A stretch of DNA of 26,665 bases, from the IMG/VR virus record IMGVR_UViG_3300048672_001522, positions 1 through 26,665 of that record. One strand, given 5' to 3'. This stretch comes from a virus. Below, in pieces: positions 8,835 to 23,396 of the stretch; position 1 is the first letter of the stretch, and every line of letters starts with the position of its first letter. The notes under the pieces are model-generated. The model did not search any database. It was not told the DNA's origin and saw only the letters and a list, made by a program, of their open reading frames with translations. The position numbers and the translations under genes were made by a program.

Positions 8835-10906
8835 TGACCAATTTAATTACTGGAATTTATTCGGATGGTACCACATCACTCGAAAAGCCGATCGCGGTGG
8901 ATGTAGATGGCAAAATTAAAACGCTAGCCACATCACTCGATCAATCTGAGGCGTGGACGACTATCAGGACGTTTAATGCAAATACAAATCCAGACGGATT
9001 AAATGCTGCACCAACCAACCCAACCGCAACCAGCCCCAATGTAACCAATGAAAATGCCGATTATCAAGCATTACTGGGATTTTCCCCCACTAATTCTAAT
9101 AAGCTCCAGGTTTTGCCTAGACTAAAAACTACTCCGGGCTACACAGCTAGGGTTTATCCTTGGATCTGGGACGGCTTCAACGATGTAGCTTTACCAGGAA
9201 TCGCAGTATTACCAAAAGATAATGGGATCTCATTCAGCGATTCAAATGGCTTTTTATCCGGCAATCCCAAGCAAATTTACACCCTCAGCCAGTACAATGC
9301 TGGCTTGAGGGTGGGTGCGCGGGTAACGCTCTTGCCTTTGTCTAGCGTTTTCAGCCTGCCAGTATCAAATACTGTGCCCAATGTCACTCAAGCTGCGATT
9401 ACCAATCCTGGGTACCAAGGTGGGGAGTTAGTAACTTTCAACACCACGGGAACATTGCCGTTTGGATTAGCGGCATTTGTATCATCCTTTAACTCAAGCA
9501 ACAATACATTAACTTTAGATGGTGCAAGTTTTTCTGATGCTGAGCCAGTCCGATTTAATTTTGTTTCGCTGGGTGCGAACGCGATTCCACCGCTAGGCAT
9601 AGCTGCACGCATTCAACCATCTGGTGTTAGCACCAAAACTGGTACCTTAACCTTAGATGGTTCGCAAACCGATTTAGTTTTATCGGCTGGAGATTCAATT
9701 AGATTTAGAAATGCTCCAGGAAGTACATTGCCGGGCGGAATCACTAACGCGACGACCTATGTAATTCGTTCGGTTAGTGGTTCTCCTGGTAGTCAAACTT
9801 TCATCTTGACCAACGCGGATGGGATAACGCCATTAATTCCTACCAGTATCGGCGCGGGATATTTTTATATATTCAGATATCCATACCAACCATTATTTTT
9901 CAAAGGCACCAATCAACTCAGCTACAACAGTGGCGAATCGGCAATTTCATTTCCTTCCGATTACAATAGCATTCCTGTTTGGTTGACTGGAAATACAATC
10001 GCGACATTTACTTCGACCGCACATGGATTTACAGCCAATCAAGCCGTCACTCTAACTGGCACGACCGCCCCAGGCGGAATGACACTAGGGGCTACCTATT
10101 ATATTTATGGGCCATCACTAGCAGCCAATACCTTCCAACTCTCATTCACTCCAGGCGGACTGCCATTCCCTGCAACGAGTATTGGTTCATCTGTAGTGGT
10201 TGGCGGCAAAGCTTGTACAGTGTCTGCAACTACTCCCGTTGCTAGTGTGTTTACATTCAGTGCTCACGGCTTCACCAATGGTCAAGCGTTAATACTAGGA
10301 GGAACAACCGCACCGGGTGGTGGAGTACTAGGTAATACTTATTACGTCAGAAATGCCACTGCCAACACATTTGAGTTAGCTCAAATTAGCGGCGGCTTAT
10401 CTTGCGCATTTACCTCGACTGGTTCTAACGTCACGGTCAAAGCTTCGGGCGGTAGTCCAATTGTTGTCGCTGTCACTGCTGCGGTTCAGCAACAAATCAC
10501 GCTAGTCAATCATTATTTTGGCGCAACGCAACAATTCAACCTGCCTGCGGCAACAGGTACTAGTGATTACACATTAGGAAATTCATTATTTGTAGTTAGC
10601 AACAGCTTAACTGCCACAACCTTCCAGTTTAGCGATTTTGTCGGTGGTGCTCCAGTAATTATCCCTGGTACGGCGATTACAGGGGTTGCCCTCTCTGCGG
10701 CTTTCTCAAATACGTACTATCCCTTTACCCTTGAAAAAACTCAGGCTTATATCAAATCTCCAGCAGATAGCACGGTTGGATTTTCTAATACAAGTGGTGG
10801 GGCTGCGATCGTGTTGTATGGTGGTAGTGGCACCCACACAATTACACCTGCCAACGCTGGACAAATTTTGTCAGGTTCGCAGATCTTAGCGAGAGTAAGT
10901 AGCTGA
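8834..10906 (+). CDS. Repeat-containing tail fibre or virion surface protein
   Basis: Protein of 690 residues starting with GTG after a strong AGGAGG. It is rich in Gly, Ser, Thr and Asn, with very few charged residues, typical of extracellular beta-structured phage fibres. The C-terminal half holds three diverged repeats of about 81 residues, anchored at H397, H478 and H560. Their pattern is HGFxxxQxxxLxGTTAPGG, then LGxTYYxxxxxxNTFxL. Similar HGF...PGG...YYV...F repeats are common in phage tail proteins. It is followed by a TGATG overlap with a second beta-rich protein. A receptor-binding or decorative role is likely; the specific target cannot be read. Confidence 0.6.
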   Translation: MTNLITGIYSDGTTSLEKPIAVDVDGKIKTLATSLDQSEAWTTIRTFNANTNPDGLNAAPTNPTATSPNVTNENADYQALLGFSPTNSNKLQVLPRLKTTPGYTARVYPWIWDGFNDVALPGIAVLPKDNGISFSDSNGFLSGNPKQIYTLSQYNAGLRVGARVTLLPLSSVFSLPVSNTVPNVTQAAITNPGYQGGELVTFNTTGTLPFGLAAFVSSFNSSNNTLTLDGASFSDAEPVRFNFVSLGANAIPPLGIAARIQPSGVSTKTGTLTLDGSQTDLVLSAGDSIRFRNAPGSTLPGGITNATTYVIRSVSGSPGSQTFILTNADGITPLIPTSIGAGYFYIFRYPYQPLFFKGTNQLSYNSGESAISFPSDYNSIPVWLTGNTIATFTSTAHGFTANQAVTLTGTTAPGGMTLGATYYIYGPSLAANTFQLSFTPGGLPFPATSIGSSVVVGGKACTVSATTPVASVFTFSAHGFTNGQALILGGTTAPGGGVLGNTYYVRNATANTFELAQISGGLSCAFTSTGSNVTVKASGGSPIVVAVTAAVQQQITLVNHYFGATQQFNLPAATGTSDYTLGNSLFVVSNSLTATTFQFSDFVGGAPVIIPGTAITGVALSAAFSNTYYPFTLEKTQAYIKSPADSTVGFSNTSGGAAIVLYGGSGTHTITPANAGQILSGSQILARVSS

Positions 10907-17553: not shown

Positions 17554-17584
17554 ATTATTCACTAATTATTCACTAATTATTCAC
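17554..17584. repeat. Tandem 11-bp repeat, three copies
   Basis: ATTATTCACTA occurs at 17554-17564 and 17565-17575, followed by ATTATTCAC at 17576-17584. It lies directly upstream of the ribosome site of the gene ending at 17168. An iteron or operator role is possible; replication slippage is equally possible. Confidence 0.6.
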
Positions 17585-17684: not shown

Positions 17685-18314
17685 TTAATAAACCTTAACC
17701 CGTTTACATTCAGGAAACTTACTACAAATAAATTTAACAGTTTCAGGTTTGATTTCATTATTCTTGAGTAATCTGATGAGTGAAGCTGTTCTGATGGAGT
17801 AGTCAGAGTCTACGGGGTAATCGATATCTTGTTGACTAGATGGGACTTCTAAAGAGATGATTTCATCCTTCGGAGGTAAACCATTTTTATCAGTCCTCTT
17901 ACACTCTTTTTGCCAATCAGAACGATACCTATTCAATTGATTATCATCAGCACGAGATAATGCGAGTAATGCTGACCGCATTCCATTGCTAGACGTGATT
18001 TTGATTAGAGCAGTCAATGAGATACCAGAGATGGTGGCTTCCTTTGTAGATTGTCTTGCTACTCCAACAATTTTGTACCAGTCGGTATCAATCGGTTCGA
18101 CCTGCCCCAAAAACTCTAATATTTCTTGAGGTTTGGGAAAAATTCCTTGGTTGTAAAAGTGTTCGATTGCTCGACTGAAGTCAGCGCGAGCGAGGTGGGA
18201 TAGCTGGCGAAAGTACATTTCAATCATCAAATCAGTAATGTCAATCTTGCGGAAACTAATGCTTGCTAATAGATTCAGGCAGTCAATCAGATCGGATTTA
18301 GCTAGATATTCCAT
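17685..18314 (-). CDS. Putative helicase loader-like replication protein
   Basis: Protein of 209 residues directly downstream of the initiator gene, overlapping its stop by one base. The N-terminal segment (IEMYFRQLSHLARADFSRAI, then FPKPQEILEFLG) resembles the phage loader proteins of the G39P type: a helical bundle that feeds helicase onto the origin. The initiator-then-loader order matches lambda O-P and other theta-replicating phages. The middle (ISLTALIKITSSNGMRSALL) is helical; the end is basic (KFPECKRVKVY). No P-loop is seen, so it is not a DnaC-type ATPase. Confidence 0.5.
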   Translation of the reverse strand: MEYLAKSDLIDCLNLLASISFRKIDITDLMIEMYFRQLSHLARADFSRAIEHFYNQGIFPKPQEILEFLGQVEPIDTDWYKIVGVARQSTKEATISGISLTALIKITSSNGMRSALLALSRADDNQLNRYRSDWQKECKRTDKNGLPPKDEIISLEVPSSQQDIDYPVDSDYSIRTASLIRLLKNNEIKPETVKFICSKFPECKRVKVY

Positions 18315-19570
18315 TAATTAAAAACCTCTGGGTAATTGATTTGAATCCATTCAATCGGTGGACAATCTGGGTGTCCTGGTAACGTCACTAACTTCTTCAG
18401 CAAATCGATATATCTACCGATGTTCGCTCCAGTTCGGAGGCGATCGCTCCTCCACTCCGGTCTGCCATTCGATTGCTCGACAATCTTCTGCGCCAACTTT
18501 TCTTTGACACTTTCTCCACTCCCTTCCCATTTCGCCGCTGCCACTTCTACCCGTTCGCTCTCACACAGCCAGTAAATATCCCCGCTCCCAAATTCTTTTT
18601 TCGTGTGAAAGTCGCTTCCCCTATACCACAGCAGCGCGTTCTTCCAATCCTCTGTTAGCTTCTCGATTGATTCCCCGTTGGATTGGTATCGATCCACTAA
18701 ATACTTAATCTTCTTTCTAAGGGTGCTATTTGCCTTCTTAACCCCTGTCCAGTTATCTGGACGACCATTGTTATACAACCTCACCAACTCGTCTGTTATA
18801 GGGGTAATATTGCCTGAGTAATTCCAGCTATCATTAAATTTCTGTGTGGTCTGGTGTCTTGTTTTGTCGCACCCGCCGGAAAATTCCCCTTCTCCAGAAA
18901 CCGGACTTACTTCTAGGGATTGAGTTATTGGTTCCGTGCTTGCTAGAGGTTCACGAATGGTTTCCTCAATTTCCGTGCTTGCAAGAACCTCAGTGCTTGC
19001 TAGAGATTCTTGAATGGTTGGTTCGGGTTCAAATTTTTCACCAAAACTTTCCCCCGCGCGCGCGTCCGGATCTGTGTGTGTATTCTTTGTGAGTATTTTT
19101 TGATTAGTATTCTCTGTATATATAGATCTAGCGTCAGATATTACGCTTGCTAACGTCACATCTGACGCTTGCTGACGTAAGATGTGACTCTTGCTAACGT
19201 CACATCTTACGTTAGGGATATTGCTGGATTTGAGGGCTGTATCCGCAATTGTTTGGTACAAAAGTTCTATGTCGAGTTTGTACCAAAGTTGTCGATCGAG
19301 ACCCCTTTGTTCTTCAGTTAGTAGTCCCAATTTCTTGAGAGATTTTCTAGCTACTTCCCATTCGCGCCGAGAGATAAAAGTCTCCTGATGCCAATCGTCA
19401 AAGGTTTTATAGATGAAGCCGTTCGGGTCACGACCTTTGTTGCCATTGCTCCAATAATAAAGTTGGGACAGAAATATACCACCAGAGACACTGCCAACAA
19501 TCTCGGCAAAAATTGATTGATAAGCGATCGGACGACTTAGTAATTTCTGAACAATTTGTAAGTTATTCAA
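18314..19570 (-). CDS. Replication initiator with embedded origin
   Basis: Protein of 418 residues with a TTG start supported by GGAG 7 bases upstream. The N-terminal 110 residues form a winged-helix replisome-organiser domain (FLSQLYYWSNGNKG, FIYKTFDDWHQETFISRREW, ARKSLKKLGLLTEEQRG). A low-complexity linker follows (about 120-240), with repeated LASTE units, and then a C-terminal helical domain with several Trp residues that may contact the loader encoded next. The iterons at 19124-19211 lie inside the gene, encoding residues about 120-149. This is the lambda O arrangement: N-terminal domain binds iterons in its own gene. The linker's odd composition reflects DNA-level constraint. Confidence 0.68.
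   Translation of the reverse strand: MNNLQIVQKLLSRPIAYQSIFAEIVGSVSGGIFLSQLYYWSNGNKGRDPNGFIYKTFDDWHQETFISRREWEVARKSLKKLGLLTEEQRGLDRQLWYKLDIELLYQTIADTALKSSNIPNVRCDVSKSHILRQQASDVTLASVISDARSIYTENTNQKILTKNTHTDPDARAGESFGEKFEPEPTIQESLASTEVLASTEIEETIREPLASTEPITQSLEVSPVSGEGEFSGGCDKTRHQTTQKFNDSWNYSGNITPITDELVRLYNNGRPDNWTGVKKANSTLRKKIKYLVDRYQSNGESIEKLTEDWKNALLWYRGSDFHTKKEFGSGDIYWLCESERVEVAAAKWEGSGESVKEKLAQKIVEQSNGRPEWRSDRLRTGANIGRYIDLLKKLVTLPGHPDCPPIEWIQINYPEVFN
18936..19019. repeat. 27-bp direct repeat in the initiator linker
   Basis: GTGCTTGCTAGAG begins both 18936-18962 and 18993-19019, and both end with GAATGGTT. A third shorter GTGCTTGC is at 18975. They encode the LASTE units. The GCTTGCTA core is shared with the iterons, so they could be remote, degenerate origin sites. 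Confidence 0.5.
19085..19211. other. Putative replication origin: iterons and AT-rich DUE
   Basis: Three 22-bp tandem iterons run 19146-19167, 19168-19189 and 19190-19211, each starting CTTGCT. A degenerate fourth is at 19124-19145. The core GTCACATCTTACG is direct in copies 1, 3 and (degenerate) 0, and inverted in copy 2, so copies 2 and 3 make a 14-bp inverted repeat (19175-19188 with 19199-19212). The period is two helical turns. An AT-rich tract at about 19085-19127 abuts them, as a DNA-unwinding element would. The whole lies inside the initiator gene, as in lambda ori. Confidence 0.72.
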
Positions 19571-23307: not shown

Positions 23308-23319
23308 ATTTGTTGATAG

Positions 23320-23396
23320 GTGAGTAGTGATAAGTGAGTAGTGATAGATAACACACCTCTCATCGAGTGGGGAATATTTACTCCTCGATGAGGAGT
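23320..23396. repeat. 13-bp direct repeats and palindrome upstream of the gene at 23041
   Basis: GTGAGTAGTGATA occurs at 23320-23332 and 23334-23346. The palindrome ACTCCTC-GAT-GAGGAGT lies at 23380-23396; part of it, CTCGATGAG (23384-23392), also pairs with CTCATCGAG (23359-23367). It lies between two minus-strand genes and could hold an operator or promoter. No clear promoter boxes are seen. Confidence 0.45.

Follow-up and report, generated by a model that had tools for sequence, protein, structure and literature searches.

Background

Phage lambda is the textbook case of a replication origin placed within a gene, SPP1 (G38P/oriL) has another, and the lambdoid origins were reportedly compared in older work by Moore, Blattner and colleagues and by Backhaus and Petri. 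The lambda origin lies in the initiator gene O, and those of P22 and phage L lie in gene 18. Lambda iterons are 19 bp long, with start spacings of 20, 24 and 23, and each is an inverted repeat to which O binds as a dimer (PMC7466680, PMC5043065). Once bound, the dimers melt an AT-rich tract of 40 bp, both O and P touch the opened DNA, and transcription is required for the origin to fire (PMC5043065). Iteron sequences vary among relatives (PMC8022706). In Pfam, lambda O and P22 gp18 both match Phage_rep_O (PF04492).

The RepA_N initiators include RepA of pSK41, in which four Rep boxes lie centrally in rep and the ori-encoded central domain is a linker; the RepA_N N-domain binds ori, and both the N- and C-domains are DnaD-like (PMC5703833). 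Two further systems have strand-specific elements in or beside the DNA to be opened. At RK2 oriV, iteron-bound TrfA specifically binds one strand of tandem 13-mers in the melting tract (PMC4081077). At Bacillus subtilis oriC, the DnaA-trios lie opposite an element that DnaD recognises in a strand-specific way, and these short strand-specific single-stranded repeats beside the initiator sites direct opening and helicase loading (PMC10201434).

The predicted origin described here is of a known kind, an in-gene iteron origin, and a variant of it with respect to its initiator family and a conserved polar motif in its melting tract.

Phage context and initiator gene

The window, meaning the whole stretch of 26,665 nucleotides that was analysed, is the 26.7-kb virus contig IMGVR_UViG_3300048672_001522. 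Its head genes are Mu-type, as originally predicted, with matches to Portal_Mu (3.7e-100), Mu Gp36 (2.2e-31) and Mu Gp27 (1.3e-21); the Mu-type portal gene (positions 23-1933), on the minus strand, runs against the remaining head genes and the terminase genes. A tyrosine integrase serves as the recombinase. HIP1 sites (GCGATCGC) occur five times against 0.28 expected, which points to a cyanobacterial host, and the phage is temperate and probably cyanobacterial.

The initiator gene occupies positions 18314-19570 of the minus strand, starts with TTG and encodes 418 aa comprising an N-terminal winged helix, a disordered linker that holds the putative origin and a helical C-terminal part. The N-terminus matches phrog_9773 (replication initiation O-like, E 1.8e-30), phrog_1347 (2.1e-21) and the DnaD-like phrog_6493 (1.8e-15), in line with the predicted initiator function. 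In an AlphaFold2 model built from 46 sequences, the winged-helix DNA-binding domain (residues 1-116, 19223-19570, minus strand), the presumed reader of the iterons, is confident (pLDDT about 96 over most of the domain), and the helical C-terminal part is of low confidence. Residues 121-240 (18851-19210, minus strand) are predicted to be disordered, with a pLDDT of 33-55 in blocks, and this stretch covers all residues encoded by the repeats and the melting tract. The repeats therefore do encode the initiator linker, as had been proposed.

The original prediction likened the layout to that of lambda ori within O. Support was obtained for the in-gene arrangement, with a correction as to the Pfam family of the initiator: lambda O and P22 gp18 belong to PF04492, whereas neither the window protein nor its 45 aligned relatives matched this family in Pfam. 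The nearest solved folds of the N-domain are those of RepA_N initiators (4pql, 4pt7 and 5kbj; Z 8.8-9.3), one of the nearest being a Rep-DNA complex, with scores just slightly higher than those of unrelated winged helices; the comparison list contained no lambda O structure and says nothing on the lambda O family. A central in-gene origin encoding a linker is found in both RepA_N genes and the window, but the window gene is a phage gene and its protein has no RepA_N match in Pfam. Searching the PDB with the initiator alignment gave no match, and NCBIfam gave nothing useful for the initiator.

The next gene (17685-18314, minus strand, 209 aa) is, from its position, a candidate helicase loader or partner. 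It has no Pfam match, and its N-terminal part has a weak similarity (hhalign E 5.6e-4, probability 30%) to the DUF6475 protein encoded after the initiator gene on a Marinobacter plasmid.

Iteron array

The top tandem array in the window was located by Tandem Repeats Finder (TRF) at 19128-19211 (period 22, 3.8 copies, score 98), and a repeat search of the window gave three 36-nt copies at spacings of 22 and 22, which reproduces the three 22-bp tandem repeats and degenerate fourth copy first reported. The array lies about 360 bp downstream of the initiator start codon, just past the winged-helix domain, and reads CGTAAGATGTGACGTTAGCAAG / AGTCACATCTTACGTCAGCAAG / CGTCAGATGTGACGTTAGCAAG / CGTAATATCTGACGCTAG on the coding strand. 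The four iteron cores, delimited by the repeat search and TRF on the minus strand, are CGTAAGATGTGACG (iteron 1, 19198-19211), AGTCACATCTTACG (iteron 2, 19176-19189, with its asymmetric centre inverted), CGTCAGATGTGACG (iteron 3, 19154-19167, with perfect 5-bp arms) and CGTAATATCTGACG (iteron 4, 19132-19145, a degenerate copy).

An inverted pair at 19172-19188 / 19199-19215 (17 nt, 94%; whole element 19172-19215) arises from the flipped core and contains an exact 14-bp core, ACGTAAGATGTGAC / GTCACATCTTACGT. The 14-bp inverted repeat of the original prediction is thus exact, and the description of one core as inverted needs amending: each repeat is a near-palindrome, CGTMA-N4-TGACG, so that copy 2 is for the most part an unchanged site whose asymmetric centre is reversed. 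The dyad score of the array has p=0.033. Lambda iterons are likewise inverted repeats, and in lambda-type origins, as in the window, the iterons lie past the N-terminal winged helix with an AT-rich tract adjoining.

The autocorrelation score at lag 22 is 33, compared with a maximum of 15 in 200 synonymous-codon shuffles and 16 in 200 codon-order shuffles. A 22-bp unit shifts the reading frame with every copy, so a peptide repeat is impossible; since 22 is not a multiple of 3 and the synonymous-codon shuffles never reach the score, the repeats are a feature of the DNA. A second linker repeat is present at 18933-19019, as three copies of about 30 nt at in-frame spacings of 39 and 18 that encode LASTE, and it has TAGCAAGC in common with the iteron spacers. 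Two short arrays lie between listed genes elsewhere in the window, at 17554-17584 (11 bp x 2.8, ATTATTCACTA) and at 23314-23346 (14 bp x 2.4, TGATAAGTGAGTAG).

Melting tract and polar motif

The AT-rich tract said to adjoin the repeats is the least stable DNA of the gene, a putative DNA unwinding element at 19080-19130 (minus strand). In the nearest-neighbour profile, no other 50-mer of the gene is less stable than 19081-19130, which ranks third for instability in the window (top 0.1%). The original prediction missed the repetition within this tract, a TRF array at 19071-19117 of period 13 and 3.5 copies, as well as a conserved polar repeat, CAGAGANTAC. A motif scan located one perfect and two degenerate copies on the coding (minus) strand at 14- and 13-bp steps: CAGAGAATAC at 19107-19116 (perfect), CAAAAAATAC at 19093-19102 (two mismatches) and CAAAGAATAC at 19080-19089 (one mismatch). 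GC skew, which had been put forward as a check on the origin, has no turning point at 19.1 kb and its minimum is at 10,761; in a 26.7-kb linear fragment where skew follows gene direction, this is uninformative.

Lambda and P22 lack an array of CAGAGANTAC (lambda has one copy with one mismatch, and P22 has no good copy), and their tracts have instead ACAAAAGACA-type repeats common to both. Repeats of the ACACAAAAGACA type occur in both AT-rich tracts (loci L155 and L164 for lambda and P22, respectively) despite differing iterons. The tract repeats of these two phages suggest a second, putative tract motif for the PF04492 group.

RK2 oriV and the window both have tandem short repeats in the melting tract, and differ in initiator family and repeat sequence; an in-gene position of the origin is, to our knowledge, not part of the RK2 system. 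Conserved, one-strand polar repeats in the melting tract, as found here, are a feature of strand-specific origin elements. TnnT, which forms the core of the DnaD element and is a very weak pattern, occurs in GTANTCTCTG, the motif's complement; the initiator and the sequence of B. subtilis oriC both differ from those of the window.

Relatives chosen by protein similarity

Homologs of the initiator, encoded by phages and plasmids, were fetched by protein similarity from cyanobacteria and from several genera of proteobacteria, and 23 distinct homologs were counted after three duplicates and an IS-truncated Nostoc gene were left out. The best tandem repeat was at lag 22 or 23, directly past the winged-helix domain, in 18 of the 23, and several homologs (L009-L012, L032) had no significant iterons. 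Dyads were commoner than chance in the iteron arrays (Fisher p 4.5e-5, 14 arrays, with column-shuffled arrays as the null), and 59% of 39 further arrays had dyad symmetry at p<0.05. The 7-mer GCGGAAA is present in about half of the arrays of relatives (10/19) and absent from the window iterons. The homologous initiator genes are followed by DnaB or DnaC-like genes, DnaB helicase being the next gene in plasmids p2 and p3 of Calothrix PCC 7716 and in plasmid A of Trichormus variabilis. Two of these three plasmids (L007, L017 and L018 for Calothrix p3, Calothrix p2 and Trichormus plasmid A) are without a typed replicon, and an O-like initiator with in-gene iterons and DnaB may be their unrecognised replication module. 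In a plasmid of Nostoc sp. MS1 (L019:3974-7077), a transposase gene interrupts the O-like initiator and separates its winged helix from the iterons, and 23-bp repeats of the Trichormus type persist on its far side.

Protein-pattern scans for close relatives of the initiator or integrase gave one related virus record only, and two scans of genome contigs gave none. In this nearest relative (IMGVR_UViG_3300046778_000250), the C-terminal half of the initiator is 54% identical; the record opens part-way through the linker, and its positions 1-60 carry a GGTCAAATTTTG / CAAAATTTGACC dyad (GGTCAAAATTTGACC), as if the assembly broke within its own iteron array. CAGAGANTAC is absent from the portion of the tract kept in this record, and a search of the rest of the record did not recover the N-terminal half of the initiator.

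A winged helix, iterons of 22 or 23 bp and a low-stability tract recur in most homologs, including some on plasmids with DnaB next. We consider the window array very probably an in-gene iteron origin, for which initiator binding and origin activity are predicted from the sequence. The array might instead be an operator for autoregulation, with the initiator regulating transcription by binding within its own gene while the origin lies elsewhere; palindromes are sites that winged-helix proteins do recognise, and not every array of binding sites is an origin. We judge an operator highly unlikely, given the distance of the repeats from the start codon, the low-stability tract and conserved polar motif that follow each array and for which an operator has no need, and the identity of the layout with that of the annotated origin in lambda and P22.

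Polar motif across relatives and in blind scans

In the relatives, the motif follows most of the arrays; two to four copies of CAGAGANTAC with fixed polarity directly adjoin the iterons and sit in the melting tract at 10-14-bp steps. With up to one mismatch allowed, the motif occurs at 17.9 per kb on the coding strand in the 110 bp downstream of the iterons. Outside this zone, on either side, the density on that strand is 0.13 per kb, and the opposite strand of the zone has none. Exact copies number 37, against a mean of 2.5 (maximum 8) in synonymous shuffles. A de novo count of 7-mers, which did not presuppose the motif, found ACAGAGA in 12 of 19 tracts, whereas the null never exceeded 6.

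A blind scan of IMG/VR with a 12-bp-spaced pair (CAGAGANTACNNCAGAGANTAC) gave at least 120 loci. Among the 120 matches listed, the winged helix of the window initiator lay upstream in 99, and in 111 a significant tandem repeat did (lag 23 in 94, lag 22 in 7 and lag 24 in 6). Four initiators sampled from the remainder (L041, L064, L076 and L121) belong to phrog_270 or phrog_678, which are other families of replication initiators. The motif is present in several initiator families and in settings with different helicase genes. A scrambled pattern of equal composition gave eight loci, none of them with this winged-helix domain. Dereplication kept 66 of the 120 loci among the matches listed, and of the 168 exact copies in their 629 kb, 165 fall on the coding strand within the origin; because the motif itself defined this set, the informative part of the figure is the scarcity elsewhere. 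Pairs spaced by 11 bp gave 42 dereplicated loci among the matches listed, 38 of them with the domain, and pairs spaced by 13 bp gave 63 loci (8 dereplicated, 7 with the domain). Nearly all of the genes marked by the spaced pairs, among the matches listed, encode O-type initiators.

These counts bear on whether the DNA has any function of its own. Both the repeats and the T-E-x-T stretch could be variation in linker length or peptide repeats under selection at the level of the protein; slippage repeats are frequent in linkers, most copies of the downstream motif share one frame, in which they encode TE[NIT]T every 12 bp, and the window linker has its separate in-frame LASTE repeat further along. 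Against this, neither 22 nor 23 is divisible by 3, relatives have the period in common, both signals are lost in synonymous shuffles, and copies of CAGAGANTAC are found in all three reading frames. The 11- and 13-bp pairs shift the frame and yet mark the same genes, which places the constraint on the DNA. Selection on the peptide was rejected on the basis of the shuffles and the frame-shifted copies, and a linker without DNA function is an extremely improbable account of the locus.

The letters of the motif were searched for in the literature, and among the papers listed, from a corpus with few older papers, none was on replication origins by title, so that an earlier description is possible; in one phage paper they are part of a cloning primer.

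Proposed mechanism and significance

From these features we infer initiator binding, melting, strand choice and helicase loading at a theta origin that the temperate phage would carry within the gene for its own initiator. Dimers of the N-terminal winged helix would bind the four near-palindromic 22-bp iterons, and the complex would bend the DNA and melt the adjoining tract at 19081-19130. One melted strand, marked by CAGAGANTAC at 10-14-bp steps, would then be held sequence-specifically by the initiator or the helicase loader, and the replicative helicase would be loaded last. The initiator protein would tolerate the embedded origin because the origin DNA encodes a disordered linker, and the in-gene placement would keep origin and initiator together during module exchange.

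By analogy with the single-strand elements above, CAGAGANTAC or its complement may be read as single-stranded DNA by the initiator or loader. In a genuine origin the motif could also act at the level of RNA or duplex DNA, as a site for transcription, priming or a nucleoid protein, given that it is on the coding strand and hence also in the mRNA, and that lambda depends on transcription as noted above. We regard such a role as rather unlikely, since the position beside the iterons, the fixed polarity and the two to four copies at 10-14 bp resemble single-strand elements elsewhere, namely the RK2 13-mers (PMC4081077) and the DnaD recognition element (PMC10201434). As for single-strand loading, the considerations for and against a broader proposal seem to us evenly balanced: in-gene origins of phages and plasmids would widely use CAGAGANTAC as a single-stranded loading signal that has so far had no name. 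It would be common to the initiator families phrog_9773, phrog_270 and phrog_678 with varying iterons, be strictly polar away from the iterons, and correspond in phages to the DnaA-trio and the DnaD recognition element.

Which sequence, if any, is read in the melted tract of in-gene origins is not settled in the literature searched, and the motif offers a concrete test. It is conserved, polar and independent of the reading frame across cyanobacteria and several genera of proteobacteria, in their phages as well as their plasmids. As a nearly specific DNA signature, CAGAGANTAC can guide the search for replication origins and initiators where phages and plasmids lack annotation, among them cyanobacterial plasmids without a typed replicon.
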